A stretch of 55,564 nt of DNA, taken from assembly GCA_025453995.1 (NCBI GenBank), contig JALOPH010000001.1, positions 1-55,564 of the forward strand. The letters run 5' to 3'. Both the position numbers and the translations under genes were made by a program. The stretch comes from Desulfobacterales bacterium (GTDB lineage: Bacteria > Desulfobacterota > Desulfobacteria > Desulfobacterales > Desulfosalsimonadaceae). The notes below the pieces were generated by a model, which was not told where the DNA came from, did no database searches, and saw nothing but the letters and a program-made list of their open reading frames with translations. Every line of letters starts with the position of its first letter. The first letter of the stretch is position 1. Of the stretch, positions 12,565 to 39,197 are shown one piece after another.

Positions 12565-12611
12565 TTGACAGGATTTATTTACGTTGATAAAAAACTGACT
12601 GAGCGCTCAGT
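12565..12611 (+). promoter_or_regulatory. Promoter and perfect 14-bp palindromic operator of the tetR-sulP run
   Basis: TTGACA (12565-12570) with TAAAAA 17 bp downstream (12588-12593) forms a sigma70-like promoter. ACTGAGCGCTCAGT (12598-12611) is a perfect palindrome immediately after the -10 and 24 bp before the TetR start, an ideal position for autorepression. Confidence 0.55.
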
Positions 12612-12635: not shown

Positions 12636-13226
12636 ATGAAAATCAAAAAAAAAGACGCCATACTCAACGCAGCCACCCACTTGTTTTCAGTAAAAGGGTT
12701 CAAAGACACCCATATGGCTGAAATATCCAAATTGACGGGCGCTGCCGAGGGGACAATCTTTTACCATTTCAACAATAAAGAGGAGCTTTTTTTAACCATT
12801 TTAAACGAATTCAAGGAAAGCATTCTGAATGAATTTAAAAAGTTCACCGAAGAAAACACATTTGAAACCGGCCTTTCCATGACGGAAGAGATGATTTCTT
12901 TTTACCTTCATATGGCGCAATCCATGGAAGACCGCTTTCTCCTGCTCCACCGCCATGACGCCTATGAATTGTCCCAGACCAGCGAACCCTGCCGACAACA
13001 CCTTGAAGCCATCTACAACTGCATGGTGGACATGTTTGAAAACGCCATCGAGCAAGGGAAAAAAGACGGGTCCATCGGGGATATTTCCTCCCGTAAAGTT
13101 GCCATGATAATTTTTGGAATGGTGGATGGATTGCTGCGGTTTAACACTTATGGACTTTACGATGCCGGAACATTGTTCAATGAGCTGATTTATGCCTGCC
13201 GAAAAATTTTAAAAAATGACAGGTAA
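12636..13226 (+). CDS. TetR/AcrR family transcriptional regulator
   Basis: A 196-residue protein with an N-terminal helix-turn-helix (residues ~7-50: DAILNAATHLFSVKGFKDT, then AEISKLTGAAEGTIFYHFNNKEELF). The C-terminal ligand-binding domain is unlike its neighbours and gives no ligand clue. A perfect palindrome lies directly upstream, suggesting autoregulation. The SulP permease gene begins 18 bp after its stop, so both are probably transcribed together and the regulator would control the permease and perhaps the signalling genes beyond it. Confidence 0.88.
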   Translation: MKIKKKDAILNAATHLFSVKGFKDTHMAEISKLTGAAEGTIFYHFNNKEELFLTILNEFKESILNEFKKFTEENTFETGLSMTEEMISFYLHMAQSMEDRFLLLHRHDAYELSQTSEPCRQHLEAIYNCMVDMFENAIEQGKKDGSIGDISSRKVAMIIFGMVDGLLRFNTYGLYDAGTLFNELIYACRKILKNDR

Positions 13227-13244
13227 TTTTTACTCGAGGAAAAT

Positions 13245-15371
13245 ATGCTGGAAAAAATATTTCCGTTTTTAGGCTGGTTTAAAAATTATAATTCAGGAAG
13301 TTTTAAAACCGATCTCATTGCAGGGCTGACCGTCGCCCTGGTGCTCATCCCCCAGTCCATGGCCTATGCCCAACTGGCGGGGTTGCCGGCTTATTACGGA
13401 CTTTATGCTGCTTTTCTCCCGCCCATGCTGGCATCCCTGTTCGGGTCCAGCCGGCAGCTTGCCACCGGTCCGGTGGCCGTGGTGTCGCTGATGACCGCCG
13501 CCTCCCTGGCGCCCCTTGCAAAAGCAGGCAGTCCCGGCTATATCACCTATGCCGTTCTTCTTGCCCTGATGGTCGGCGCGTTTCAGTTTTCTCTGGGCTT
13601 GCTGCGGCTCGGCCTGGTGGTCAATTTCCTGTCTCACCCGGTGGTCAACGGATTCACCAATGCCGCGGCCATCATTATCGCCTCCTCTCAGCTCTCAAAA
13701 ATGTTCGGTGTTTCCGTGGATGAAGCCACCCACCATTATGAAACCATTCTCCGGGTCATTCAAGCGGCAATTCACTATACGCACTGGCCCACGTTCGCCA
13801 TGGGCGTTTTTGCTTTTGCCGTCATGTATGCCCTGCGATGGTTCAACCCGAAAATCCCCAACGTGCTTGTGGCTGTCGTGGCCACCACCCTCATTTCATT
13901 CCTGGCGGGGTTTGAACACAACATCAGCGCAACTATTTATAATATACCAGACGCCTCAATTTGCCGGCGGATCAGCGAATTCAACAAAAAGGCTCTGGAA
14001 ATTGAAGCGCTTTCAAAGCAAAGAACCGACCTGTATACAGATCTCTCAAAAGTCAAAGAGGAACAGAACATCATCGCCGAACTCAACGCCGAACATGACT
14101 TGGAAGTGATTTCTTATAAAATAGACACGCTCAATGAAGAGTCCCATAACATCCGGGAGGATCTCCGGAAAATCATGTTTGCTGCAATCCCCCAGCCGGA
14201 TGGATCTCTAACATTCTATATTCATGGCAATATTCCTCCCGGTGAAAAAACAGACGGAAGAATCTGGAGGATCAAGGTCGGCAACAACCCCATTCCCGAG
14301 GACAAAATAACCTTGATAGGCGGGGGCGCGGTCGTGGGTGTCATCCCCAAAGGACTGCCGGCATTTTCCGTGCCGAAAATCGACTTCAAAATCTTTGGCC
14401 AGCTCTTTCCTTACGCGGTTATTATTTCATTGCTGGGGTTCATGGAAGCAATCTCCATCGCCAAAGCCATGGCCGCCAAAACCGGCCAGCGGCTCGACCC
14501 GAACCAGGAACTCATCGGCCAGGGACTGGCCAATATGATCGGCGCCATCGGTAAAAGCTACCCCACATCCGGTTCTTTTTCCCGCTCCGCGGTCAATCTC
14601 CAGGCCGGCGCCGTATCCGGATTGTCCAGCGTTTTTACGAGCCTGACCGTTGTCATTGCACTGCTGTTTTTTACGCCCCTGCTCTATCACCTCCCCCAAT
14701 CGGTTCTGGCGGCGGTTATCATGATGGCGGTCATCGGACTGATCAACGTGTCGGGGTTTATTCACGCCTGGGAAGCCCAGTGGTATGACGGCGCGATATC
14801 CATCATCACCTTCATCTGCACTCTGGCGTTTGCGCCTCATTTGGACAAGGGCATCATGGTGGGGGTGGTGCTGTCCCTGAGCGTTTTTATCTATAAAAGA
14901 ATGCGGCCGTCCGTGGTTTCGCTGTCACGGGCCGAGGATCAGGCGTTGCGGTGCGCCCGCGTTCATCAACTCAAGGAGTGCAAATACATTGCCATGATCC
15001 GGTTTGACGGACCTCTCTTTTTCGCCAATGCCAGCTATCTGGAAGACAAGATCATGGAGATCATGCAGGAGAAAAAAGAGCTTAAACACATTGTGATCGT
15101 ATCCAACGGCATCAATGATATTGACGCATCGGGCGAGGAAACCTTGTCTTTGCTTGTGGACCGGGTGCGAAGCGCCGGTGTGGACATCTCTCTTTCCGGC
15201 GTGAATGAGGCGGTCATGAGCGTATTCAAGCGCACGCATTTCCCGGAAAAAATCGGAGAACACCACATCTTTCCAACCATGGAAAAGGCTATCGAATCTA
15301 TTTATGAAGACGCGCATCGGGATAAGGAGGAGGGGCTGTGCCCCCTTGTCCCCGTATGCGTAACTGCTTGA
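13245..15371 (+). CDS. SulP-family anion permease with STAS domain and a large central insertion
   Basis: A 708-residue transporter. The N-terminus has the SulP signature (AGLTVALVLIPQSMAYAQLAG) and multiple TM helices; a C-terminal STAS domain spans residues ~566-690. Between the TM segment ending LAGFEH (residue ~224) and the conserved VVGVIPKGLPAF (~362) there are about 130 residues where, from my knowledge of the family, normally only a short loop occurs. The insertion includes a coiled-coil-like stretch (ALEIEALSKQRTDLYTDLSK and onward) and a small predicted beta region. Substrate could be sulfate, relevant for a sulfate reducer, or bicarbonate or another anion; sequence alone does not decide. 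It lies between tetR and a receiver-fusion gene in a same-strand run. Confidence 0.9.
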   Translation: MLEKIFPFLGWFKNYNSGSFKTDLIAGLTVALVLIPQSMAYAQLAGLPAYYGLYAAFLPPMLASLFGSSRQLATGPVAVVSLMTAASLAPLAKAGSPGYITYAVLLALMVGAFQFSLGLLRLGLVVNFLSHPVVNGFTNAAAIIIASSQLSKMFGVSVDEATHHYETILRVIQAAIHYTHWPTFAMGVFAFAVMYALRWFNPKIPNVLVAVVATTLISFLAGFEHNISATIYNIPDASICRRISEFNKKALEIEALSKQRTDLYTDLSKVKEEQNIIAELNAEHDLEVISYKIDTLNEESHNIREDLRKIMFAAIPQPDGSLTFYIHGNIPPGEKTDGRIWRIKVGNNPIPEDKITLIGGGAVVGVIPKGLPAFSVPKIDFKIFGQLFPYAVIISLLGFMEAISIAKAMAAKTGQRLDPNQELIGQGLANMIGAIGKSYPTSGSFSRSAVNLQAGAVSGLSSVFTSLTVVIALLFFTPLLYHLPQSVLAAVIMMAVIGLINVSGFIHAWEAQWYDGAISIITFICTLAFAPHLDKGIMVGVVLSLSVFIYKRMRPSVVSLSRAEDQALRCARVHQLKECKYIAMIRFDGPLFFANASYLEDKIMEIMQEKKELKHIVIVSNGINDIDASGEETLSLLVDRVRSAGVDISLSGVNEAVMSVFKRTHFPEKIGEHHIFPTMEKAIESIYEDAHRDKEEGLCPLVPVCVTA

Positions 15372-15394
15372 TCCCATTATAACAGGGGGGTGAA

Positions 15395-16630
15395 ATGTCA
15401 ATTATCAGTATTTTTACCGGAACATTCTGCAATGAAGAGGAGCTGCTTGCGGCATTGGCGAAGAAATCCGGATACACGCTTGTGAGAGACAAGGAGATTG
15501 TCCAAGCAGCCAGCAACCTGTCGAAAATGTCGGTATCAAAAATTGAGAAGGCATTTTCCGCCAAGACCTCCGTATTCAACAAATTCACCCATGAGCGGGA
15601 GCGATCCATCGCCTATCTGAAATCTTCACTTGCGGATATGCTCATGAATGACGATCTTATTTTTGAGGGGTTTTGCGCTCATCTCATTCCCAAGGAAATG
15701 GCTCATATTCTGCGCGTCTGCCTGATTGCCGACATCAAATTCAGGAATGCATTGTGCCAAAGACAAAAAAAAATCAGTTCGTCTGAATCCGCCAAACTCA
15801 TCCGCGCCATGGACGAGGACCGGGCGTCCTGGGTCCATATGGTCCATCAGGCCCATGACCCCTGGAATGCCGGACTCTATGATATTGTTTCCCCGGTGGA
15901 CAAAATGACCCGGGAAAACATCATTGATTTGATCATAGACAACGCCAAAAAGGATATCTTTAAAACAAACAGGAGCGCCCGGAGAGCTCTGGATGACTTC
16001 AAACTTGCCGCTGCCGTGGAAGTGGCGCTGATCAATGAAGGGCATCATGTCGGCGTTAAAGCAGACAACGGCGATATCATCATGACCATCAACAAGCATG
16101 TGCTTCTGCTGACCCGCCTGGAAGATGAGCTCAAATCCATAGCCGGTCGTATCCCCGGCGTGAAATCCGTACAGACCAAAGTCGGATCGGAGTTCCATCA
16201 GGCTGATATTTACAGGAGATGCAATTTCGAGCTTCCGACTAAAATCCTTCTGGTGGATGATGAGAGGGAATTTGTTCAAACCCTTTCAGAACGGCTGATG
16301 ATCCGTGACATGGGGTCCGCCGTGGCCTATGACGGCGAGTCCGCGCTTGAGCTTATCAAAGAGGACGAACCTGAAGTCATGATTCTGGATTTGCGCATGC
16401 CGGGAATCGACGGGATCGAGGTGCTCAAACGGGTCAAACAGACAAATCCGCTTATCGAAGTCATCATCCTCACCGGGCATGGCTCTGATCTGGACAGGGA
16501 TATATGTTTGAGCCTTGGCGCATTTGCGTATATGCAAAAACCTGTCGACATCGATGAATTAAGCGAAATCATCAAAAAAGCCAATGAACGGATTCGGGTG
16601 AAGCTCGGGCGGCAGCCAGCGGCATCGTGA
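15395..16630 (+). CDS. Cytidylate-kinase-like / BON-like / receiver domain fusion protein
   Basis: A 411-residue protein with three parts. Residues 1-190 resemble the AAK26 cytidylate kinase-like family (ISIFTGTFCNEEELLAAL, YTLVRDKEIVQAAS, FEGFCAHLIP), but the N-terminal P-loop is not a canonical GxxGxGK(S/T), so kinase activity is doubtful. Residues ~200-265 look like a BON domain (DNGDIIMTI, then ELKSIAGRIPGVKSVQT). Residues ~280-400 are a response-regulator receiver with acidic pocket VDDE, phosphoacceptor Asp332 (ILDLRMPG), ILTGHG and the conserved Lys in MQKPVD. It starts 23 bp after sulP. A role in post-translational control of the permease is inferred from position and from the absence of any DNA-binding domain. 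Confidence 0.78.
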   Translation: MSIISIFTGTFCNEEELLAALAKKSGYTLVRDKEIVQAASNLSKMSVSKIEKAFSAKTSVFNKFTHERERSIAYLKSSLADMLMNDDLIFEGFCAHLIPKEMAHILRVCLIADIKFRNALCQRQKKISSSESAKLIRAMDEDRASWVHMVHQAHDPWNAGLYDIVSPVDKMTRENIIDLIIDNAKKDIFKTNRSARRALDDFKLAAAVEVALINEGHHVGVKADNGDIIMTINKHVLLLTRLEDELKSIAGRIPGVKSVQTKVGSEFHQADIYRRCNFELPTKILLVDDEREFVQTLSERLMIRDMGSAVAYDGESALELIKEDEPEVMILDLRMPGIDGIEVLKRVKQTNPLIEVIILTGHGSDLDRDICLSLGAFAYMQKPVDIDELSEIIKKANERIRVKLGRQPAAS

Positions 16631-16642
16631 AGGAAGAGCAAG

Positions 16643-16710
16643 CCCCCCTCCCTCCACTTTTGAAAAGGGAGGAGAAAAACTGCCCCCATTAAAAGGGGAT
16701 TGAGGGGGGA
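16643..16710. repeat. C/G-run inverted repeat block
   Basis: Paired runs CCCCCCTCCCTCC / GGGAGGAG and CCCCCATT / AAAAGGGGATTGAGGGGGG form imperfect hairpins between the receiver fusion and sensor kinase genes. Similar blocks occur at 49959-50011 and 55299-55388. Confidence 0.6.
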
Positions 16711-16762
16711 TATCGATGTGAAGAAGCTCTCAACATAAAATCAACACAATCAGATTTTACGC

Positions 16763-18481
16763 ATGAACCCCATATCAAAGTCATCTGAGGAAGCCGGGTC
16801 GTTTCCGCATACCCAGAAGCACCTGATGAATTACCGGCGGATCTGGCGGACCGTAGTGTTTCTGACAGGCTGCGTATCGCTTATCCCGCTGATATTCATC
16901 ACCACTATTGACTACCAGGTCACCCAGCGGGCCATCGAGTCGGAGTTTCTGCTGCGAACCACCCGGATCATCTCCAATACCCAGCGGGCCATCTCCTTTT
17001 TCCTGGTGGAACGAAAATCCGCGCTCAATTTTATTATCCGGGATAATAATTTCACTGACCTGGAAAATCCTGACAGGCTGCTTAAAATTCTGGAGAATCT
17101 TCAGGAAAGTTTCGGAGGCGGGTTTATGGACCTGGGTTTAATTGATTCAGACGGGCTTCAACGAAATTATATCGGGTTATATGAACTCCAGGGAAAAAAT
17201 TACAAAGACCAGGAGTGGTTTGAGGAAGTGGCCGAACGCGGGGATTATATCAGCGATGTCTTTATGGGATATCGAAAAATTCCCCATTTTATCATCGCGG
17301 TGAAGAGGGATCTGCCGGACGGCTCTTTTTATATCCTCCGGGCGGCCATCGGCATCGGTCCCTTTGAAAATCTGTTGTCCAACCTTGAGCTCGAGGGTTT
17401 GGGCGACGCCTTTATGATCAACCATGACGGCATTCTCCAGACCGCCTCCCGGAATTACGGCGGCGTTCTGGACAAAATCCCTCTGCCTGTCCCTAATTTT
17501 TCAGATAAATCTGAAGTGTATGAAAGCGGCGGTCCCGAAGCGTCACGGCTGGTCATCGGCTATAAATTCATTGACGATGCGCCTTATATCCTGATGATTG
17601 TTAAAAACAAGCATGAATTGATGAAGCCCTGGATGAAAACCCGCCTTCAGCTCATCGCCTTTCTCATCGGCAGCATCACCGTGATTCTGACTGTCATTCT
17701 GTGGACCGCCGGATTCATGGTCAGAAAAATTAAAAGCGCCGACCAGCGGCGGGTGATGTCTTTGCACCAGGTGGAATACGCCAACAAAATGGCCTCCATC
17801 GGCCGCATGGCCGCCAATGTCGCCCATGAAATCAACAACCCTCTGGCCATCATTAATGAGAAAGCCGGCCTGATGAAAGACCTGTTTCTTTTCAAAGGGG
17901 AATATGCCAAAGACGACCGTGTATTCACGTTGATTGACGCCATTCTTGCCTCCGTCAGGCGCGCCGGCACCATTACCAAAAGACTGCTGACCTTTGCTCG
18001 AAAATTTGAAGCTTCTGTTGAAAAAATCAATTTAAAGGCGCTGATCAGCGAGGTGATGAGTTTCTTCCAGCGGGAAGCGGATCACCGGGATATCGCGCTT
18101 CAAATTGATATTCCTGAAAACATGCCTGAAATTGAAAGCGACGTGGGAAAGCTGCAACAGATTTTCGTCAACATTATCAACAATGCGTTTGCCGCCATTA
18201 CAGGCAGGGGGCGCATCAGCATTCATATGGCTTTAAAAGGAATTGATCATATTTTAATCACCATCAGCGACACCGGCTGCGGGATACCCAGGGAGGATTT
18301 ATACCGGATTTTTGAGCCTTTTTTTTCCACCAAAAAAGGAAGCGGCGGGACAGGACTCGGTTTGTCCATCACATATAATCTAATTCAGGAAATCAAAGGA
18401 AAAATATCAGTGGACAGCGAGGTGGGAAAGGGTACCACGTTCGAGATATCGCTGCCCATCGTAAAAGACGAACCCTTTTAG
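16763..18481 (+). CDS. Membrane sensor histidine kinase with an extracytoplasmic sensor domain
   Basis: A 572-residue kinase. TM1 is at ~residues 30-50 (TVVFLTGCVSLIPLIFITTI); a ~230-residue periplasmic domain of dCache/Cache type follows (NYIGLYELQGKNYKDQEWF is typical of Cache sensors); TM2 is at ~295-315. Then come a HisKA dimerisation domain with phosphoacceptor His355 (NVAHEINNPLAI) and a complete HATPase domain: N box FVNIINNAFAAI, G1 DTGCGIP, F box FEPFFSTKKGS and G2 GGTGLGL. No HAMP domain is obvious. It is followed 14 bp later by a single-domain receiver and is the only apparently active kinase in the cluster. Confidence 0.92.
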   Translation: MNPISKSSEEAGSFPHTQKHLMNYRRIWRTVVFLTGCVSLIPLIFITTIDYQVTQRAIESEFLLRTTRIISNTQRAISFFLVERKSALNFIIRDNNFTDLENPDRLLKILENLQESFGGGFMDLGLIDSDGLQRNYIGLYELQGKNYKDQEWFEEVAERGDYISDVFMGYRKIPHFIIAVKRDLPDGSFYILRAAIGIGPFENLLSNLELEGLGDAFMINHDGILQTASRNYGGVLDKIPLPVPNFSDKSEVYESGGPEASRLVIGYKFIDDAPYILMIVKNKHELMKPWMKTRLQLIAFLIGSITVILTVILWTAGFMVRKIKSADQRRVMSLHQVEYANKMASIGRMAANVAHEINNPLAIINEKAGLMKDLFLFKGEYAKDDRVFTLIDAILASVRRAGTITKRLLTFARKFEASVEKINLKALISEVMSFFQREADHRDIALQIDIPENMPEIESDVGKLQQIFVNIINNAFAAITGRGRISIHMALKGIDHILITISDTGCGIPREDLYRIFEPFFSTKKGSGGTGLGLSITYNLIQEIKGKISVDSEVGKGTTFEISLPIVKDEPF

Positions 18482-18495
18482 TCAAAGGAGTTGAT

Positions 18496-18882
18496 ATGGC
18501 GATCAATGTTTTACTGGTCGATGATGAAATTGAGCTGGTCTCCACTTTGGCGGAAAGATTGTCCATGCGGGGGTATGAGGTCAAATGGACAACCACCAGC
18601 GAGGACGCCTTACGCCGGATCGAATCCCAATCCTTTGACGTGGCGGTTCTGGATTTAAAAATGCCCAGGATCTGCGGCCTGAAGCTCAGGGAAAATCTTC
18701 AGAAAAAACAGCCGGCCATGAAATTTATTTTTCTGACCGGATACGGGTCGGAAGAGGACTACCGGAAAATTTCCGACCAGATCGGCGAAGAATTTTATTT
18801 GGTAAAGCCGGTGGACATCGACGTTCTGATTGAAAAAATCAACATGGTTGTAAAACCACAAACAAAAGGCGAACCATCATGA
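18496..18882 (+). CDS. Single-domain response regulator (receiver only)
   Basis: A 128-residue CheY-like receiver: acidic residues VDDE, phosphoacceptor Asp53 (VLDLKMPRICG), Thr in FLTGYG, and Lys in LVKPVD. There is no output domain. AAAGGAG precedes the start. Its stop overlaps the next start by 4 bp (ATGA), so it is translationally coupled to the degenerate kinase at 18879. This fits a phosphate shuttle in a relay. Confidence 0.92.
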   Translation: MAINVLLVDDEIELVSTLAERLSMRGYEVKWTTTSEDALRRIESQSFDVAVLDLKMPRICGLKLRENLQKKQPAMKFIFLTGYGSEEDYRKISDQIGEEFYLVKPVDIDVLIEKINMVVKPQTKGEPS

Positions 18883-19538
18883 CGGACAACCCAAATGCAA
18901 TTGGCGGTGAAAATCTCCGCTTTTTCGGCAAAGTGACCGCATCCATCTCCCATGAAATCAAAAATGTTTTGGCAATCATGAATGAAAAAGCCGGCCTGCT
19001 GAAGGACCTGACATTGATGGCGCAAAAAGGAATAACGCTGGATATAAATCGCATTCAATCCATTGCGGATGATCTGCGGGCTCAGATCAAACGGGGAGAC
19101 GACATTATCAAGAACATGAATAAGTACTCCCACAGCGTGGATCATGAGATTGCTGAAGTAAACCTTTCGGAGTTGATCGGTCTGATGGTCACGCTTTCAG
19201 AACGCATGGCTTCCAAACATGGGATCACGCTCATCGCCCCCCCCGTCCAGTCAGGCCTCTCGGTCCGTACCCGGCCTTTTATGCTGGAACAACTGATCTG
19301 GCAGTGCCTTCAAATGATCATGGAACGAAGCGAGCAGGATAAAACCATCACCGTTGAGATTGCATCCTCAGATCAGGGCCATCAAATCATCCTTCGGAAT
19401 AAAGGGGGAGCGGCGTCTCTGCCAAAAGAGGCCATATCGTGGTTGATCAAAACACTTCATGCCGATCTGAAAATCATGAACGGGGAAACCGGACTGGTTG
19501 TGTCGCTTCCCCGGGATATTTCCGTTCAAGAGGATTGA
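18879..19538 (+). CDS. Degenerate histidine kinase, ChpT-like phosphotransferase candidate
   Basis: A 219-residue soluble protein. The dimerisation helix carries His25 in ASISHEIKNVLAIMNEKAGL, close to the equivalent segment of the kinase at 16763 (VAHEINNPLAIINEKAGL), so the two probably share ancestry. The C-terminal part has an HATPase-like outline but lacks the N-box asparagines (QLIWQCLQMIMERS) and has no recognisable G1 or G2 glycine motif, so it should not bind ATP in the usual way. Size and layout resemble ChpT-type histidine phosphotransferases (DHp plus non-catalytic ATPase-like domain). It overlaps the upstream receiver by 4 bp and is followed 40 bp later by another receiver. The phosphotransferase role is inferred. 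Confidence 0.75.
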   Translation: MTDNPNAIGGENLRFFGKVTASISHEIKNVLAIMNEKAGLLKDLTLMAQKGITLDINRIQSIADDLRAQIKRGDDIIKNMNKYSHSVDHEIAEVNLSELIGLMVTLSERMASKHGITLIAPPVQSGLSVRTRPFMLEQLIWQCLQMIMERSEQDKTITVEIASSDQGHQIILRNKGGAASLPKEAISWLIKTLHADLKIMNGETGLVVSLPRDISVQED

Positions 19539-19578
19539 CCGGAATGTATAAATGTCACCTAACTAAAGGAGGTTTTAT

Positions 19579-20025
19579 ATGCAGCCCAGAGTTTTGATTG
19601 TAGATGATGAGGAAGTTTTTGCCAAAACCCTTGCCGAAAGATTGTCCATCCGGGATTATAAAGTCGCGGTGGCATATAATGGCAAAAACGCCATCGATCA
19701 TGTGAAAAAGGAAAAAACAGACGTGGTGATCCTGGATGTTTCCATGCCCGGCATGGACGGCGTTGAAGCCTTAAAAGAAATCAAAAAAGCAAAACCCCTG
19801 ACGGAAGTGATCATGCTCACCGGGCACGCGACGGTGGAAACCGCCATTGACGGCATGAAGCTGGGCGCCCTGGATTATCTCATGAAACCCTGTGAAACCG
19901 AAGAACTTGTTGAAAAAATCAACATGGCCCATAAACGAAAATCCGAACACGAGGAGCGGATACTTCAGGCCAAAATGCAGCGCATCATTTCTTCGCCACG
20001 GTCTGTTTTCAAGGAAGATGATTGA
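19579..20025 (+). CDS. Single-domain response regulator (receiver only)
   Basis: A 148-residue receiver with VDDEEV acidic pocket, Asp53 (ILDVSMPGMDG), MLTGHATVETAI and LMKPCE. A helical tail of about 25 residues follows, with no DNA-binding domain. A very strong ribosome site (AAAGGAGG) precedes it. It is the last gene of the same-strand run beginning at 12636 and closely resembles the receiver at the C-terminus of the 15395 fusion (both read LSIRD/LMIRD then VAYNG/VAYDG). Confidence 0.92.
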   Translation: MQPRVLIVDDEEVFAKTLAERLSIRDYKVAVAYNGKNAIDHVKKEKTDVVILDVSMPGMDGVEALKEIKKAKPLTEVIMLTGHATVETAIDGMKLGALDYLMKPCETEELVEKINMAHKRKSEHEERILQAKMQRIISSPRSVFKEDD

Positions 20026-20987: not shown

Positions 20988-21278
20988 TCAAAGTGTTGGT
21001 TCCTTTGGAAGTTGCGCTCCATGCCACACAGCAACAATCCAAACAAATTGACCTTTAATTTTGTAAAAGAATCGGTAAGGTGATACTACCACTTCACGGT
21101 AAGGAAGTTCTGAAAATTCAGGAATAATTCTTCCAGACTCAGGTAAGGCTTCGAGCCTTCGCAAAATTGTTTCTGCTTTATTTCGAAAGTTAACTGCCGC
21201 TGATGATTTATCCTTTCGAATGTATGATATCGCCGAAAGGAATTGGTTACGGGCAGAAGGAGTAAATTGAACCTTCAC
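20988..21278 (-). CDS. ParE/RelE-family toxin of a type II toxin-antitoxin module
   Basis: A 96-residue protein starting MKVQFTPSARNQFLSAISYI, with the RelE/ParE superfamily pattern: LEALPESGRIIPEF, then YREVVVSPYRFFYKI and VAVWHGAQ. Family members inhibit translation (RelE) or DNA gyrase (ParE); the PESGR and YR-RFFY segments look more ParE-like, but the target is not certain. It begins 2 bp after the antitoxin gene ends, typical of such operons. Confidence 0.85.
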   Translation of the reverse strand: MKVQFTPSARNQFLSAISYIRKDKSSAAVNFRNKAETILRRLEALPESGRIIPEFSELPYREVVVSPYRFFYKIKGQFVWIVAVWHGAQLPKEPTL

Positions 21279-21280
21279 TA

Positions 21281-21556
21281 TTATTCCTTGGCTAAAAGGG
21301 CGTCAGCTTCCGAAAGAACTGTATCCAGGTCATATCCTTCACCTAATTCAATTTCCCTTTCTCCCTTGGCCAAAAGCATTAAGAGTTCCTTTTCATGTTC
21401 GGATTTCTCATAGGCTTCAACGCCGATCATTACAGCTGTTGCTCGTCCTCTTTGCGTAATGATTAACGGCTCTTTATTTTTATTCAATTGTTTCAGAAGT
21501 TTGGCTGTATCTTGTCTCAAGTCGCTTATAGGGATTATATTAGATAGCTTTCTCAT
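21281..21556 (-). CDS. Phd/YefM-family antitoxin
   Basis: A 91-residue protein starting MRKLSNIIPISDLRQDTAKL, with the Phd/YefM fold features (LNKNKEPLIITQRGRATAVM and GVEAYEK), followed by an acidic toxin-binding tail. AGGAGG precedes the ATG. It is first in the operon, with the ParE-like toxin after it, and is expected to bind its own promoter and repress the pair. Confidence 0.87.
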   Translation of the reverse strand: MRKLSNIIPISDLRQDTAKLLKQLNKNKEPLIITQRGRATAVMIGVEAYEKSEHEKELLMLLAKGEREIELGEGYDLDTVLSEADALLAKE

Positions 21557-32213: not shown

Positions 32214-32214
32214 T
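32079..32214 (+). repeat. Dispersed palindromic element, copy 2 (most diverged)
   Basis: It aligns with copies 1 and 3 (TTTTGATCAAAGACAA, CCGCAGGAATTTTTTAACC, GATCAAAAAATT, ATTTGACAAAATCTGCG). Its apex has changed but still pairs (CAACG / CGTTG). It abuts the qmoC stop codon. Confidence 0.75.
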
Positions 32215-33371
32215 TATTTCCGCCCCGCATATTCATTGTACGCCATTGCCACGGTCCGGTACACCAGATGGGCCAATTTGGAGAACGGCAGGAACATAAA
32301 GAGCACAAACACAAACATCAGATGGATAAAATAGATCAGGTAGGTCAGAAATGCCGCATCCGCCAGACGGGTCAGCTCGGTGAGCATGCCGGTGACGCCC
32401 AGACCCAGCACGAGGCCGACCAAATACCAGTCTTTATAGGTGGTGACCTGGTCTTTGGATTTATCCAACCTGTTTTTTAACATCAGTACGCCGCCGATGA
32501 CCAGGGCGACGCCGGAGACATTGGCCAGCCATTTCACCGGCGCCAGCACGCCGAACAACTGGGGATAAGGTCCATGAATGCCCAGGCCGTAAAGCACCAC
32601 AAAGAAGATGCCGGTCACGATGGCAAGCCCGATAAACGCAAAAAGCACCATCATGTGGGGCGTGGTTCTCTCACTGTTGGTTCCGCACTCTGAGAACTGC
32701 TGGTGTTTTAAAATCTTCGGGATGATACTAACCAGTGACTGGATGAATTCTTTCGGATCAATGGCCTGTTTACTGGTCTTCCCCTCTTTTAAGGCATTTT
32801 CATGCATGTCCGCAATAAAACGCTTTAAACCAAGGGCAAATACCGCAACCACCCAAAGGGAAAGAGGGATAAAAATCAGGTCTACAAGCCAGGTTGAGAA
32901 AAACTTGGCATGGGCGATGGCGCCATGCTCATTGCGTTCCGGCGTGAAATCCAGCAGACCGGTGAGCAGCCCGACCACCAGAAACACCACGATGGGAATC
33001 GCCGCCACGATGTGAAGCTTTTTCGGATCATGGATCAGTGCGCCGAGTTTTTTAAATCCACCGTAATAAGAAATGGCATACATCCGGATCGCAGCCAGCA
33101 CATCTCCGGGTTTTGCGCCGCGCGGGCAAAGGGTTGAACAATCCCCGCAGTTATGGCACAGCCATATGTCGCCATTGCCGACAACTTTGTCTTTCAAACC
33201 CCAAGCAGTTGCTATCATCTCTTTCCTGGGAAAAGGTTTACAGTCCGGCGAAATGGGACAGGCCACAGAACACGTGGCGCACTGGAAACATTTCTTGACC
33301 GAGTCTCCGCCATATTCACCAATTTCTTTTATAAATTCAAGATCTGGATCGACCAGGTATTTAGCCGCCAT
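32214..33371 (-). CDS. qmoC: Quinone-interacting membrane-bound oxidoreductase subunit QmoC
   Basis: A 385-residue protein fusing an HdrC-like domain with an HdrE/NarI-like membrane domain. The N-terminus holds two 4Fe-4S clusters (CFQCATCSVACP, and CHNCGDCSTLCP). About six TM helices follow, with His residues positioned for heme b and quinone binding. QmoC takes electrons from the quinone pool and passes them with QmoAB to AprBA. GGAGGT precedes the ATG. It is the last gene of aprBA-qmoABC, starting 21 bp after qmoB. Confidence 0.95.
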   Translation of the reverse strand: MAAKYLVDPDLEFIKEIGEYGGDSVKKCFQCATCSVACPISPDCKPFPRKEMIATAWGLKDKVVGNGDIWLCHNCGDCSTLCPRGAKPGDVLAAIRMYAISYYGGFKKLGALIHDPKKLHIVAAIPIVVFLVVGLLTGLLDFTPERNEHGAIAHAKFFSTWLVDLIFIPLSLWVVAVFALGLKRFIADMHENALKEGKTSKQAIDPKEFIQSLVSIIPKILKHQQFSECGTNSERTTPHMMVLFAFIGLAIVTGIFFVVLYGLGIHGPYPQLFGVLAPVKWLANVSGVALVIGGVLMLKNRLDKSKDQVTTYKDWYLVGLVLGLGVTGMLTELTRLADAAFLTYLIYFIHLMFVFVLFMFLPFSKLAHLVYRTVAMAYNEYAGRK

Positions 33372-33392
33372 AGTTATACCTCCATATGTTTA

Positions 33393-35729
33393 TTAGAAAC
33401 CTTTAAACGGATTGGGCCCCAGTCCTTCGATTTGCTCGACAAAATCATTGATGATCTTGGGGACCTTGTCGTATTCATCGATGGCAATTTCAAACTGAGC
33501 CACACGCTCATTTTCGAGCGCAAGACTTTTCAGCGCTTCACCGATCTTCTTCATACGGATACTGGCAAGCTCGCTTCCTTTCACAAAGTGACACTGATAA
33601 TCGTCACCGTGTTTGCATCCCAGCAGGAACACACCGTCCATACCCTGGGATAGAGCATCCTTGATCCAGATCACGTTCACAGAACCCAGGCAGCGCACCG
33701 GAATCAATCGCACATCCGCCGAATAGGACAAGCCGTTAAGGCCGACGATGTCTAATGCCGGGTATGCGTCATTTTCACAGACAAGGCCAAGTATCCGGAA
33801 GGGCGGTTCTTCGTAGTCATCCGCTGACGGGACTTTGACCGATTTTACCATGGAGCCGATGCTGTCGATATTATAATCGGCAAATCCGATAATGCGTTCC
33901 GGGCAAGCGCCCATGCAGGTGCCGCAGCGACGGCACCGGGCCGGATTGGGCTTCGGTGTGCCTTTAGCGTCATCATCCAGCGCGCCGAACGGACATTCTT
34001 CCGTGCATCGCTTGCACTGGGTGCATCTCTGGAAGAAGAAATCCGGGAATGTCATGTCGCCGGATCTCGGGTGGACTGCAACGCCCCGGTTGGCGGATTC
34101 AATGCACTGAATAGCTTTCAAGGCCGCGCCCGAGGCATCTTCTACCGATTCATCAATGGACATGCTCCGCCGGATGGCGCCGGCGGCATATACGCCGGTC
34201 CGCTGGGTTTCATAGGGGAAGCAGATGAAGTTCGAATCCGCATATTTGTCAAACAGATCATTATCCCTGAATCCCGGTCCCTGGCGGTAGGCCAGATTGA
34301 TCACCGGGTTATCCGTGGTGACCGGCACCATGCCGGTGGCCAGCACCACCATGTCAGCTTTTACCTGAACCTGCTCACCCAAAAGGGTATTGCTGGCGTC
34401 CACCATCAAACCGCTGCCGCTCTTGGCAACGCCGGTGACTTCGCCTTTGGTCAGGAAAATGCCGGGGTCCTGCTGAATATTCTTGTAAAAATTCTCCGAC
34501 AACCCAGGCGTCCGCATATGCTGATAGAAAATGAACGCTTTACCATCGGCATAGTCTTCCCTGACATATTTGGCCTGCTTAAGAGCCACCGAACTGGTCA
34601 CGGCGCCGGTAAAAGCAAAGTCAGAGTCGTCGCCGTTTCCAGGGCTTTGGATAAAGACCACGGATTTGGCCGCCTTGCCGTCAGACGGACGGACGATTTT
34701 ACCTTTGGCAGCGATCTCCTCAAACTGGAAATTGGTGACCACATCCGGTGTCTGTCCCAAGCCCAGATGGGCGAACTCGCCGTCTTTGGGCTCATAGGGC
34801 CGCCATCCGGCCGCCAGAATGACTGCGCCGAACTTCTCGCCATTGGGATCGAGCGTCAGGATGTCATTTCTGCCTTTATTGTATTCCATGTATTTTTCAT
34901 GGAGTTTTTCCGCATCCAGTTCTTTTCCGGATTCATCCACCTTCATTTCAGGCGGCAGTGGGAATGGAACGTCAAACTCGATCTTTTCACCGGGTTTTTT
35001 CAGCGTGACCGTGAAATCTCCGGGTTCTCCCGCAATACGGGCGACTTCCGTCTGGGTCTTCACCACAATTTTAGCGTTGGATTCGACCTGTTTGATTTTG
35101 TCTGCAACAACCGATGGGATCAAATTCTCGTAGGGGGGATTGACCGGCAGTTGTTTTCTCCATTTGGCTGAATTGCCGCCGAGCTGGGATTCCTTTTCAA
35201 CAATGGTGACCTCATAGCCGGCTTTAGCTGCATCCAAGGCCGCCGCCATGCCGGTGACACCGCCGCCCAGAACCAGAATTTTCTTTGAAAAGCTCTGCAG
35301 CTTGTAGGGCTCAGGAAGATTGATCTTTTTGACCTTGGCTATGCCCATCCGGATATAATCTTCAGCCATCATCTGGACCCTGTCGAATTTTGTGGAGTCC
35401 TTTTTTTCCTCTTCAGTCAGCGCGGGAAAGGTTGAACGGGGGTGGGACCAGGCCACGCCTTCCCGGATATTAACCCGATCAATGATGCAGCCTTCTAACT
35501 TAAACACGTCGTAATTCACGCGGCGAGAACAAGCGGCCAGCACAAATGCATTGATCTTTTTCTCAGCATTCTCTTTTTTTAAAAAATCAATCCCTTCCTT
35601 ACCGCACAAAAACGGGTGGGTTTGACAGGGGAATCCTTCGTCTGCAGCCACTTCGCTTAGGGCGCTCACATCAAGGGCATCACCGATGCCGCAACCTGTG
35701 CAGATATATACACCATACTTTTTATCCAT
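33393..35729 (-). CDS. qmoB: Quinone-interacting membrane-bound oxidoreductase subunit QmoB
   Basis: A 778-residue HdrA-like flavoprotein. Features in order: N-terminal YICTGCG segment; FAD-binding ILVLGGGVTGMAAALDAAKA (residues ~150); two 4Fe-4S motifs (CTQCKRCTEECP and CRRCGTCMGACP) near residues 590-630; and a C-terminal MvhD-like domain with conserved Cys (VRCLGSVN, LGCKHGDDYQC). QmoB with QmoA forms the electron-bifurcation-like module proposed to link quinones and AprBA. AGGAGGTTAACC precedes the ATG, and its start is 10 bp after qmoA ends. Confidence 0.95.
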   Translation of the reverse strand: MDKKYGVYICTGCGIGDALDVSALSEVAADEGFPCQTHPFLCGKEGIDFLKKENAEKKINAFVLAACSRRVNYDVFKLEGCIIDRVNIREGVAWSHPRSTFPALTEEEKKDSTKFDRVQMMAEDYIRMGIAKVKKINLPEPYKLQSFSKKILVLGGGVTGMAAALDAAKAGYEVTIVEKESQLGGNSAKWRKQLPVNPPYENLIPSVVADKIKQVESNAKIVVKTQTEVARIAGEPGDFTVTLKKPGEKIEFDVPFPLPPEMKVDESGKELDAEKLHEKYMEYNKGRNDILTLDPNGEKFGAVILAAGWRPYEPKDGEFAHLGLGQTPDVVTNFQFEEIAAKGKIVRPSDGKAAKSVVFIQSPGNGDDSDFAFTGAVTSSVALKQAKYVREDYADGKAFIFYQHMRTPGLSENFYKNIQQDPGIFLTKGEVTGVAKSGSGLMVDASNTLLGEQVQVKADMVVLATGMVPVTTDNPVINLAYRQGPGFRDNDLFDKYADSNFICFPYETQRTGVYAAGAIRRSMSIDESVEDASGAALKAIQCIESANRGVAVHPRSGDMTFPDFFFQRCTQCKRCTEECPFGALDDDAKGTPKPNPARCRRCGTCMGACPERIIGFADYNIDSIGSMVKSVKVPSADDYEEPPFRILGLVCENDAYPALDIVGLNGLSYSADVRLIPVRCLGSVNVIWIKDALSQGMDGVFLLGCKHGDDYQCHFVKGSELASIRMKKIGEALKSLALENERVAQFEIAIDEYDKVPKIINDFVEQIEGLGPNPFKGF

Positions 35730-35739
35730 GGTTAACCTC

Positions 35740-37017
35740 CTATCTCCTCACCAGTGTTTGAATGGCTTTGAGCGCCATACCGGTGGCGTTCTGGTTTGAT
35801 GACACCACGTCCGCCGGCTTATTGGCGCAGCCTGCCGCGAACATGCCGCCCTTATCAAAGTCATTGATAATAAACCCGTCATCCGTGTACTTAAGGTCCG
35901 CCGGGAGTTTGGAAACAGCCGCTGTGGGCTGCATGCCGGTGGCGAGAACGACCAGGTCCACGGTTTTGCGGATTTTCTCGCCGGTGACGGCGTTTTCAGC
36001 CACCACGGTGATCTGGTGATTGTCCGCCGCCTGTTCGACAGCCGCCACTTTTCCTTTGATAAAGAAGACCTTGGCGTCTTCCTTTATCTTTTTGTAAAAT
36101 TTTTCATACCGGTAACCCGGTGCGCGCATATCAATATAGAAGATAAAAATTTCCGCATCCGGATACCTTTCCCGGATATAAGTGGCATGTTTCAAGGATG
36201 CCATGCAGCAGATATAGGAACAATAGGGAAGATGGTTCTCATCTCTTGACCCGGCACATTGAACAAAGGCCACACTTTGCGGCGCTTTGTCATCCGAAGG
36301 TCTCAGAATCTGCCCCTTGGTCGGTCCGTTGGGCGCGGCCAGACGTTCCAGCATCATATTGGTGATGATATTGGGGTATCGGCCAAAACCCAGGTTGTCA
36401 ATCTTGATGGCGTCGTATGGCTGCCAGCCGGTTGCCCAGACAACGGCGCCGACATTGAGATTGACGGTTTTGGTTTTCATCTCAAGATCCACCGCATTGT
36501 ATTTGCAGGCTTCCTTGCAGCGTTTGGCGTCTTCGGTGCCGATGATCTGTGAAGAGATCACATACCGGGCGGGAAACGCCATTTCATAAGGCAGGTATGC
36601 GCCTTTCATCCTGTTTAAACCGAAATTAAATTCATTGACGATCTCCGCCTGACAAACTTTGGCGCAATCGCCGCAGCAGGTGCAATTCTCATTGACATAC
36701 CGGGGAGACAGTTTCACGGTCACCTCATAACTGCCGGGGGCGCCGCTGATCTTCTCCACTTCCGCCATGGTCAGAACTTTGATGTTGGGATTGTCTTTGA
36801 TTCTTCTGTAGTTGATTTCCAATCCGCAGGTGGGGGGGCACAGCTTGGGAAAATACTGGTTGAGTTGGGATACTCTTCCACCGAGGTACGGATTTTTCTC
36901 AACGATGAAGACTTCATACCCCACTTCGGCCGCTTCGATGGCGGTAGTCAATCCGCTGATACCTCCACCGACCACCATAATGCTTCCGCTAAACGGGGCT
37001 GCTTTATTTTCTGTCAT
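35740..37017 (-). CDS. qmoA: Quinone-interacting membrane-bound oxidoreductase subunit QmoA
   Basis: A 425-residue HdrA-like flavoprotein with SIMVVGGGISGLTTAIEAAE for FAD and a cysteine cluster CTCCGDCAKVCQAE. The ATG at 37017 is preferred over 37023: GGAGG (37024-37028) directly abuts the earlier codon but lies 6 nt before the later one. Third gene of the aprB-aprA-qmoA-qmoB-qmoC operon. A heptad-repeat hairpin (37052-37134) sits between it and aprA and could act as a processing or stability element. Confidence 0.95.
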   Translation of the reverse strand: MTENKAAPFSGSIMVVGGGISGLTTAIEAAEVGYEVFIVEKNPYLGGRVSQLNQYFPKLCPPTCGLEINYRRIKDNPNIKVLTMAEVEKISGAPGSYEVTVKLSPRYVNENCTCCGDCAKVCQAEIVNEFNFGLNRMKGAYLPYEMAFPARYVISSQIIGTEDAKRCKEACKYNAVDLEMKTKTVNLNVGAVVWATGWQPYDAIKIDNLGFGRYPNIITNMMLERLAAPNGPTKGQILRPSDDKAPQSVAFVQCAGSRDENHLPYCSYICCMASLKHATYIRERYPDAEIFIFYIDMRAPGYRYEKFYKKIKEDAKVFFIKGKVAAVEQAADNHQITVVAENAVTGEKIRKTVDLVVLATGMQPTAAVSKLPADLKYTDDGFIINDFDKGGMFAAGCANKPADVVSSNQNATGMALKAIQTLVRR

Positions 37018-37051
37018 GCTCATCCTCCGTGCTAAAGTGTTCTAATTTTTA

Positions 37052-37134
37052 ATTCAGAATCCAGAATTCAGAAGTCAGAATCCAGAATACGGAGAATACC
37101 AATTCTTCCCATTCTGGCTCCTGGCTCCTGGCTT
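37052..37134 (-). repeat. Inverted heptad-repeat hairpin between aprA and qmoA
   Basis: The left arm is a 7-bp period array (CAGAATC CAGAATT, CAGAAGT CAGAATC). The right arm is its reverse complement type (ATTCTGG CTCCTGG CTCCTGG). It forms a long imperfect hairpin inside the operon. Confidence 0.75.
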
Positions 37135-37223
37135 ATGAATTCCACGTTTAATAAAAACCTCCAGGCGCCCGAAAAAGGCGCCTGGAGGCGTCAATCAACG
37201 ACTTGCATCGTCACATTCAAGGT

Positions 37224-39197
37224 TTAGGGGAAGATCTTGATATAATCGACCTTCTTGAGATCCCACTTGTTTGTCTTCTTGTCATAGGTGGAGTTGGTGA
37301 AGCAGAACCAGTTCTTGTCATCCTGTCCCGGATGATCCGCCTGATAATAGAATCCCGGATAGCGGGTTTCTTTGCGGAACTGGATGTGGCGCAGGTGAGC
37401 CTCAACCGTATACAACCGATGATAGATTTCCCAGCATCTCATGAGTTCATGGAGATCTCCGGCAGCCAGTTTCTCTGCATCTTCACGCATGATTTCAAGG
37501 TTTTCAATGCAGATTTCAAGCATCTTGCTGGAGGTCTGATAATAGGTTGACGTTCCGGCGCCGTACTCATGGGTGTTTTTCATCATCCGGTACATCATGC
37601 CGTTGGGCTTGATGTAGTTGGGGTTGATGTCTTCAGCCGTGGTATAAGCGCAGTTGTCCAGATAGACTCTGACAGGTTTGTAGACCATGTCCACCAGTTC
37701 TTTTGCGGTTTCTTTGATGGCCGGTTTGAAGGAAGCGTTGTCGCGGACAAACTTCACCATCTCTTTGGCGGCCATACGGCCTTCCGCATGGGAGCCTGAA
37801 GAGAACTTGTGGCCTGAGCAGCCCACGCCGTCGCCGGAGGTAAACAGACCGATGACCGTGGTCATGCGGTTGTATACCTTGCCGTTGACTTTGATTTTAT
37901 ACGCATCGGGAACCCAGTCATAGTCCGGTCCTGAAACCCACATGCCGCAGCAGCCGGAGTGAGATCCCAGAAGATACGGCTCGGTGGGCATAACTTCTGA
38001 GTTCTTCTTTTCCGGTTCGCAGTTCTGTGCGCACCACAGGTTGGCCTGGCCGCAGGTCATATCCAGGAAGTCTTCCCAGGCTTCTGATTCAAGGTGCTTG
38101 AGTTCCTTCTTGTCCATGGTTTTGGCAATAGCATCCAGCGCGGTAACCGTATCCATCATGATGGGGCCGCGGCCTTCTTTCATTTCAAAGAGCATCAGGT
38201 GGTTGCGCAGGCAGGTCGGAGTAATAGCTGCGGTGCCATAGGGCGCATATTTTTCCAGCTCTTTCTTGGCGGCGTCGCTGGCTGCGAAATTTTCACCAAG
38301 GCCGTTCAATGTTTTGGCTTTGAACAGAAGGAACCACGCGCCGACCGGGCCGTAACCGTCTTTGAAACGGGCCGGGGTGAAGCGGTTTTCCATCATGGAC
38401 AGTTGGGCGCCGGCTCTTAAGCCCATGGTAAAGGTGGAACCTGCGTTCCATACCGGATACCAGGCGCGGCCTTTGCCTTCACCTACGGAGCGCGGCTGAT
38501 AGATGTTTACCGCGCCGCCGCATGCGACCATAATCGTCTTAGCTTTGATGATGTAGACTTTGTTTTCACGCAGGGAGAATCCCACTGCGCCGGCAATCTG
38601 ATTCGGGTTGTTGGCGTCGTTGAGCAGCTCAACGATGAAGCAGCGTTCCAGAATGTTTGCGTCGCCAAGAGCCTTTTTCGCGGCTTCGGCTACGACTCTC
38701 TTGTAAGATTCGCCGTTGATCATGATCTGCCATTTGCCTGTGCGGACCGGTTTTGCACCGCTTTTCAGCGAACCCATGGACAAGCCTTTCTTGCCGTCCA
38801 TGTTCTTGCCGTCTGCGGATTTCTTCCAGATCGGCAGGCCCCATTCTTCAAACAGATGAACAGAGTCATCCACGTGGCAGCCCAGGTCGAAAATCAGGTC
38901 TTCGCGGACAATGCCCATCAGGTCGTTTCGGACCATGCGGACGTAATCATCCGGAGCGTTTTCGCCGACATATGTATTGATGGCGGAAAGGCCCTGAGCC
39001 ACCGCGCCGCTTCTTTCCATGGCCGCTTTGTCGCACAGAAGAATCTTTGCGTCCGCAGCCGCCCATTTCTTGATTTCAAACGCAGTTCCGCAGGCCGCCA
39101 TGCCGCCGCCAACGATCAAATAGTCGACTTCGCGCTCTTCAACTGCCGGATCTCTTACGGCTTTGAGTTCACCCTTGGGTTTGTTTGGTAATGCCAT
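37224..39197 (-). CDS. aprA: Adenylylsulfate reductase alpha subunit
   Basis: A 657-residue FAD enzyme that reduces APS to AMP and sulfite. Motifs: DYLIVGGGMAACGTAFEI (FAD Rossmann fold, residue ~27), ERSGAVAQGLSAINTYVG (FAD domain), active-site region ENRFTPARFKDGYGPVGAW and LGSHSGCCGMW, whose Arg and His match residues known to bind APS in the archaeal enzyme. Length is standard. It follows aprB after ~70 bp and precedes qmoABC. Both subunits act at the cytoplasmic face of the membrane with Qmo. Confidence 0.97.
   Translation of the reverse strand: MALPNKPKGELKAVRDPAVEEREVDYLIVGGGMAACGTAFEIKKWAAADAKILLCDKAAMERSGAVAQGLSAINTYVGENAPDDYVRMVRNDLMGIVREDLIFDLGCHVDDSVHLFEEWGLPIWKKSADGKNMDGKKGLSMGSLKSGAKPVRTGKWQIMINGESYKRVVAEAAKKALGDANILERCFIVELLNDANNPNQIAGAVGFSLRENKVYIIKAKTIMVACGGAVNIYQPRSVGEGKGRAWYPVWNAGSTFTMGLRAGAQLSMMENRFTPARFKDGYGPVGAWFLLFKAKTLNGLGENFAASDAAKKELEKYAPYGTAAITPTCLRNHLMLFEMKEGRGPIMMDTVTALDAIAKTMDKKELKHLESEAWEDFLDMTCGQANLWCAQNCEPEKKNSEVMPTEPYLLGSHSGCCGMWVSGPDYDWVPDAYKIKVNGKVYNRMTTVIGLFTSGDGVGCSGHKFSSGSHAEGRMAAKEMVKFVRDNASFKPAIKETAKELVDMVYKPVRVYLDNCAYTTAEDINPNYIKPNGMMYRMMKNTHEYGAGTSTYYQTSSKMLEICIENLEIMREDAEKLAAGDLHELMRCWEIYHRLYTVEAHLRHIQFRKETRYPGFYYQADHPGQDDKNWFCFTNSTYDKKTNKWDLKKVDYIKIFP

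Follow-up and report, generated by a model that had tools for sequence, protein, structure and literature searches.

A conserved Desulfobacterota operon pairing candidate His-Asp-His-Asp phosphorelay proteins with a SulP anion permease as proposed output

In Spo0F/Spo0B-type relays, a kinase phosphorylates a stand-alone receiver, which passes the phosphoryl group to a kinase-derived phosphotransferase. We propose the same chain, with a kinase, a separate single-domain receiver and a kinase-derived phosphotransferase, for an operon at positions 12,636–20,025 of a 55,564-nucleotide stretch of DNA from a Desulfobacterales bacterium (family Desulfosalsimonadaceae; assembly GCA_025453995.1, contig JALOPH010000001.1, positions 1 to 55,564 of the forward strand), the whole of which is hereafter called the window. 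Unlike the Spo0F/Spo0B type, this operon is linked to a transporter, and its output would not be Spo0A-like DNA binding. The CckA-ChpT-CtrA phosphorelay of alphaproteobacteria (PMC3433190) likewise places a phosphotransferase of the dimeric DHp type, whose ATP domain is degenerate, between receivers. In contrast to that system, the operon lacks a CtrA-like DNA-binding end, a separate receiver (RR1) replaces the hybrid kinase, and the DHp protein, without the PF10090 domain, is of HisKA-kinase origin and belongs to a different lineage. Known SulP/SLC26 permeases (Rv1739c, SLC26Dg, BicA, AtSULTR4;1) share a membrane domain and a STAS domain with the operon permease, which differs from them in that a phosphorelay receiver, fused or acting in trans, is proposed to control it. 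Our reading, to which we assign a probability of about 0.6, is that the operon couples a His-Asp-His-Asp phosphorelay to an anion permease, most likely for sulfate, and that the output falls on the permease itself.

Taking up sulfate is energetically expensive and strongly influences how fast dissimilatory sulfate reduction proceeds (PMC5840216); gene neighbours of this type are not discussed in that paper. For Desulfobacteraceae, PMC11887813 (Sci Adv 2025) described clusters in which SulP and DASS genes are accompanied by two-component genes, CBS proteins and TetR, argued for sulfate as the common effector and proposed that WalR-type regulators act at promoters. The SulP cluster of that paper, which combines the permease gene with TetR, two-component genes and an operator that is palindromic, is very probably the same as the operon studied here, while its DASS cluster contains kinases, receivers and CBS proteins, as in the sister clusters described below. 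The gene clusters were therefore already known from PMC11887813, and what is new here are the relay parts and the proposed mechanism. The main text of that paper mentions neither the phosphotransferase nor the fusion protein, the receiver-bearing SulP or the missing DNA-binding domains. In the literature searched, we found no precedent for phosphorelay-receiver control of an SLC26-family permease, in trans or fused, and nothing relevant on ChpT combined with SulP, on sulfate uptake combined with a phosphorelay, or on a cytidylate kinase-like domain combined with a response regulator.

The operon consists of seven open reading frames (ORFs), all on the + strand as an earlier note on this DNA had read them: TetR, SulP-STAS, a fusion protein, a histidine kinase (HK), the receiver RR1, a protein resembling a histidine phosphotransferase (HPt) and a second receiver (RR2). 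The fusion protein, labelled FUS, joins a pseudo-cytidylate kinase, a BON-like part and a receiver. The tight spacing described in the same note applies to the small gaps and to the ATGA start/stop overlap between RR1 and the HPt-like gene (18879–18882), but not to FUS and HK, which are 132 bp apart in this genome because a MITE-like inverted repeat occupies the gap.

Gene order was surveyed by mapping the regions around fusion genes in 297 Desulfobacterota genomes and around the best 80 of 275 matches in GTDB genomes, where the named matches were also Desulfobacterota (e.g., Desulfonema magnum and strain NaphS2); individual loci and genomes are given below by L and G numbers. A recognizable FUS was present in 37 of the 297 genomes, covering 17 family labels. 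Of the 107 loci with sufficient sequence, 98 have SulP immediately upstream of FUS; eight contigs present in both sets are counted twice in this figure, which becomes ∼90 of 99 distinct loci once duplicates are removed. Downstream of FUS followed HK (86/96 loci), RR1 (83/92), the DHp protein (69/84) and RR2 (60/77), and TetR was found upstream in 67 of 88 loci. This conservation is far above chance and rules out a chance clustering in one genome. The linkage of sulP with the fusion and ChpT-like genes, which the earlier note had named as the check on its proposal, is thus borne out across Desulfobacterota.

HK (16763–18481, +) is a membrane protein with a dCache-like periplasmic domain, although dCache_1 itself matched below threshold. 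It is an orthodox histidine kinase, with HATPase_c (1.5e-26) and HisKA (1.3e-8) domains and intact H, N, G1 and G2 boxes; residues were compared in 83 orthologues, 81 of which carry DxGxG. The protein encoded at 18879–19538 (+) lacks ATP-site motifs, leaving HK as the single kinase of the set with an intact ATP site, as had been supposed. In Pfam, this second protein gave a HisKA match below threshold and nothing else, and its AlphaFold2 model (predicted local distance difference test, pLDDT, 92.9) has a DHp hairpin followed by a CA-like domain, with HK853-type kinases as the best PDB matches in Foldseek (2c2a, E 3.9e-10). His25 and Asn29 are kept in 71 of 71 orthologues, and only 2 of 71 have the DxGxG motif, versus 81 of 83 for HK. 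We propose that this kinase-dead DHp protein is a histidine phosphotransferase acting through His25. The description of it as ChpT-like is right in architecture (a His-bearing DHp hairpin and a CA-like domain without ATP-site motifs) but not in family: PF10090 (HPTransfase, the ChpT family) was matched by none of 61 orthologues, which rules out true ChpT membership, while HisKA was matched by 57 of the 61. The protein is derived from a HisKA kinase.

Both stand-alone receivers have intact phospho-sites. RR1 (18496–18882, +; Response_reg 9.1e-23), the proposed intermediate between HK and HPt, has D9, D10, D53 and K104 invariant in 81 orthologues, and RR2 (19579–20025, +; Response_reg 2.2e-34), which ends in a short C-terminal tail, has D9, D10, D53 and K103 invariant in 61. 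Their lengths, 114–145 aa for RR1 and 126–167 aa for RR2 in these orthologues, leave no space for the usual DNA-binding domain. Pfam found none in RR1, RR2 or FUS, and TetR was the only helix-turn-helix protein of the set, confirming that none of the three receivers carries such a domain. WalR/OmpR-type winged-helix receivers were ruled out for RR1 and RR2 by length and by Response_reg being their sole Pfam domain.

The permease (13245–15371, +) belongs to the SulP/SLC26 family, with Sulfate_transp (1.3e-106) and a C-terminal STAS domain (2.9e-17), and is the only complete SulP in the genome (assembly 92% complete), which has one DASS gene elsewhere. PDB alignments place a coiled-coil-like insert of about 130 aa (aa ∼227–360) between its two membrane halves, probably periplasmic as judged from the known 7+7 fold. 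Adjacent to it, FUS (15395–16630, +; model pLDDT 91.4) matched Cytidylate_kin2 (1.3e-18) and, at its C-terminus, Response_reg (2.6e-26), with D332 as the putative phospho-acceptor. The Cytidylate_kin2 profile (PF13189) matched 35 of 35 orthologues tested. However, a glycine-rich P-loop was absent from all 110 orthologues, ruling out an active nucleotide kinase, and 102 of 110 have a conserved Cys near its former place. The receiver kept its phospho-acceptor and acidic residues in all but one of the 110. The middle part is less distinct: BON (PF04972) had no Pfam match in the window FUS and a weak one in 6 of 35 orthologues, and model residues 193–263 show a helix-strand-strand-helix-strand order compatible with BON.

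In two lineages, SulP, STAS and a receiver occur in one ORF of 846–864 aa: L085 (10042–12633), L088 (6189–8771) and L125 (ending at a contig edge), all with genus label g17, and L092 (10255–12792) in another family. Sulfate_transp, STAS and Response_reg were all present by Pfam in the fused proteins of L085, L088 and L092, and in a receiver tree the fused receivers were closest to those of FUS. These fusions support, as independent evidence, a protein-level output on the transporter. Moreover, SulP-FUS pairs exist without a kinase of their own adjoining (L069, L085, L086, L201), therefore FUS is a SulP-specific part. A DASS-type relay was found in G273 (L116), G296 (within L086) and relatives of G042 (L088, L125). 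From these arrangements, FUS appears to be the outlet that a shared relay uses specifically for SulP. As further observations on this protein, L070 has a free-standing homologue of its N-terminal part directly after RR2, and the window genome has seven further Cytidylate_kin2 matches (G000 contigs C284, C179, C161, C73, C281 and C89).

Genomes with the DHp protein and no nearby fusion had clusters, assigned by Pfam on representatives, in the order HK, receiver, DHp protein, small proteins, two receivers, CBS protein and DASS-like transporter, or else with a TSUP transporter. SulP- and DASS-linked DHp proteins grouped in a single clade (support 1.0; 48 tips), with two hits from DASS loci placed outside it. 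The operon receivers fell into three groups: RR1 grouped with the same-place receiver of DASS clusters (0.93), the FUS receiver with a DASS-cluster receiver (0.87), and RR2-type receivers, a less well resolved group, occurred in both cluster types. The relay parts of SulP and DASS clusters are thus orthologous, as judged from these trees. Among the FUS loci without SulP that were examined, which excludes L189 and L203, FUS was found near DASS, TSUP or CBS genes (L097/L210, L102, L103, L104; CBS in L095 and L105). A motif like AAxFAEAGE recurs in small proteins and receiver tails of sister clusters (L109, L110, L111, L112, L116 and others); the one such protein tested had no Pfam match.

That the transported anion is most likely sulfate is suggested by genomic context. 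AprA (adenylylsulfate reductase) was present in 33 of the 37 fusion-bearing genomes versus 119 of 297 overall (Fisher p = 5e-11, uncorrected for shared ancestry). In the window, qmoC (32214–33371) and aprA (37224–39197) lie about 12–19 kb from the operon; between them are two HdrA-like genes, probably qmoB and qmoA, which places a sulfate-reduction core (32214–39197) close to the operon.

From all this we infer a direction of phosphoryl flow, a contact between FUS and SulP and an effect on uptake. The membrane HK would sense an outside signal via its Cache-like domain and phosphorylate RR1, from which the phosphoryl group would pass to the kinase-dead DHp protein. This HPt would then charge the FUS receiver and/or RR2. 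The FUS receiver would act directly on SulP, probably at the cytoplasmic STAS face, so that transport would be adjusted after translation; RR2 would be either a further, shared outlet or a sink for phosphate. TetR would separately repress its own operon. Whether a dedicated phosphorelay gates SulP/SLC26 permeases, and DASS or TSUP transporters in the sister clusters, directly through a receiver on a pseudo-nucleotide-kinase partner or fused after STAS seems to us evenly balanced. Several points weigh against a relay that ends on the permease. Fusion and linkage show functional association only and leave the direction of control free, RR2 is without an assigned output, a relay can pass its signal to a DNA-binding regulator whose gene lies elsewhere, and the co-occurrence test of FUS with aprA ignores shared ancestry. 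In PMC11887813 the Ds. variabilis SulP was described as abundant and constitutive, an observation that can be listed here too but speaks neither for nor against control of activity.

Transcriptional control probably acts on the operon as well. The TetR-family repressor (12636–13226, +; TetR_N 1.1e-13) is preceded by 24 bp by a perfect palindrome, ACTGAGCGCTCAGT (12598–12611), a predicted operator consistent with the palindrome of 16 bp that PMC11887813 described. It lies downstream of TTGACA (12566–12571, +), the putative –35 box of the operon promoter, and both are kept in related operons, with TTGAC similarly placed upstream of TetR in L069–L084 and L090. A search of the genome with ACTGAGNNCTCAGT gave one match only; because the palindrome occurs once, TetR appears to be a local regulator, probably repressing only its own operon, and a wider regulon was ruled out. 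In the model published for these clusters (PMC11887813), HK senses external sulfate, WalR-type regulators bind promoters and raise transporter synthesis, and TetR adds a second control. The TetR gene and its conserved operator fit that scheme, but TetR does not belong to the response regulators, its site is present a single time in the genome, and the absence of DNA-binding domains from FUS and from RR1 and RR2 throughout their 81 and 61 orthologues makes it very improbable.

A relay ending on a DNA-binding or other regulator elsewhere, with the operon only ensuring co-expression and FUS serving as adaptor or phosphate sink, is the least unlikely of the alternatives, though still unlikely. RR1 and RR2, as single receivers, are able to feed other proteins, and a PAS-sigma54-activator gene is linked to some related clusters (L086, L102, L104) and may form a side branch at the level of transcription. 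However, this activator has no receiver domain, and such a scheme sits poorly with FUS remaining beside SulP even without adjoining kinase and HPt, and with FUS-type receivers being fused to SulP. Transporters that serve kinases as co-sensors are known. Reverse flow of this kind, with the permease as a sensor or co-sensor and information on transport entering the relay through FUS, would fit SulP-FUS being the tightest pair of the operon; but HK comes with a periplasmic Cache-like domain of its own, and a phosphorylatable receiver on a permease looks like an output end, and we consider this unlikely, more so than a regulator encoded elsewhere.

Other features of the locus were also recorded. 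The MITE-like inverted repeat between FUS and HK (16643–16712, no strand assigned) has four further copies in the genome at 77–78% identity and is probably unrelated to function. A consensus scan for internal promoters gave 19 weak matches versus 9.2 in shuffled sequences, and no match was decisive. Immediately past the downstream end of the operon, on the opposite strand, are a ParE-type toxin gene (20988–21278) and beside it a probable antitoxin gene (21281–21556).

If the relay does end on the permease, sulfate reducers could rapidly throttle the entry of their electron acceptor with no need for transcription. Such a relay would give a testable mechanism for how these organisms adjust uptake and would call for a revision of the published promoter-binding model. 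The SulP-STAS-receiver fusion, as a system made of one protein, offers a place where relay control could be tested.

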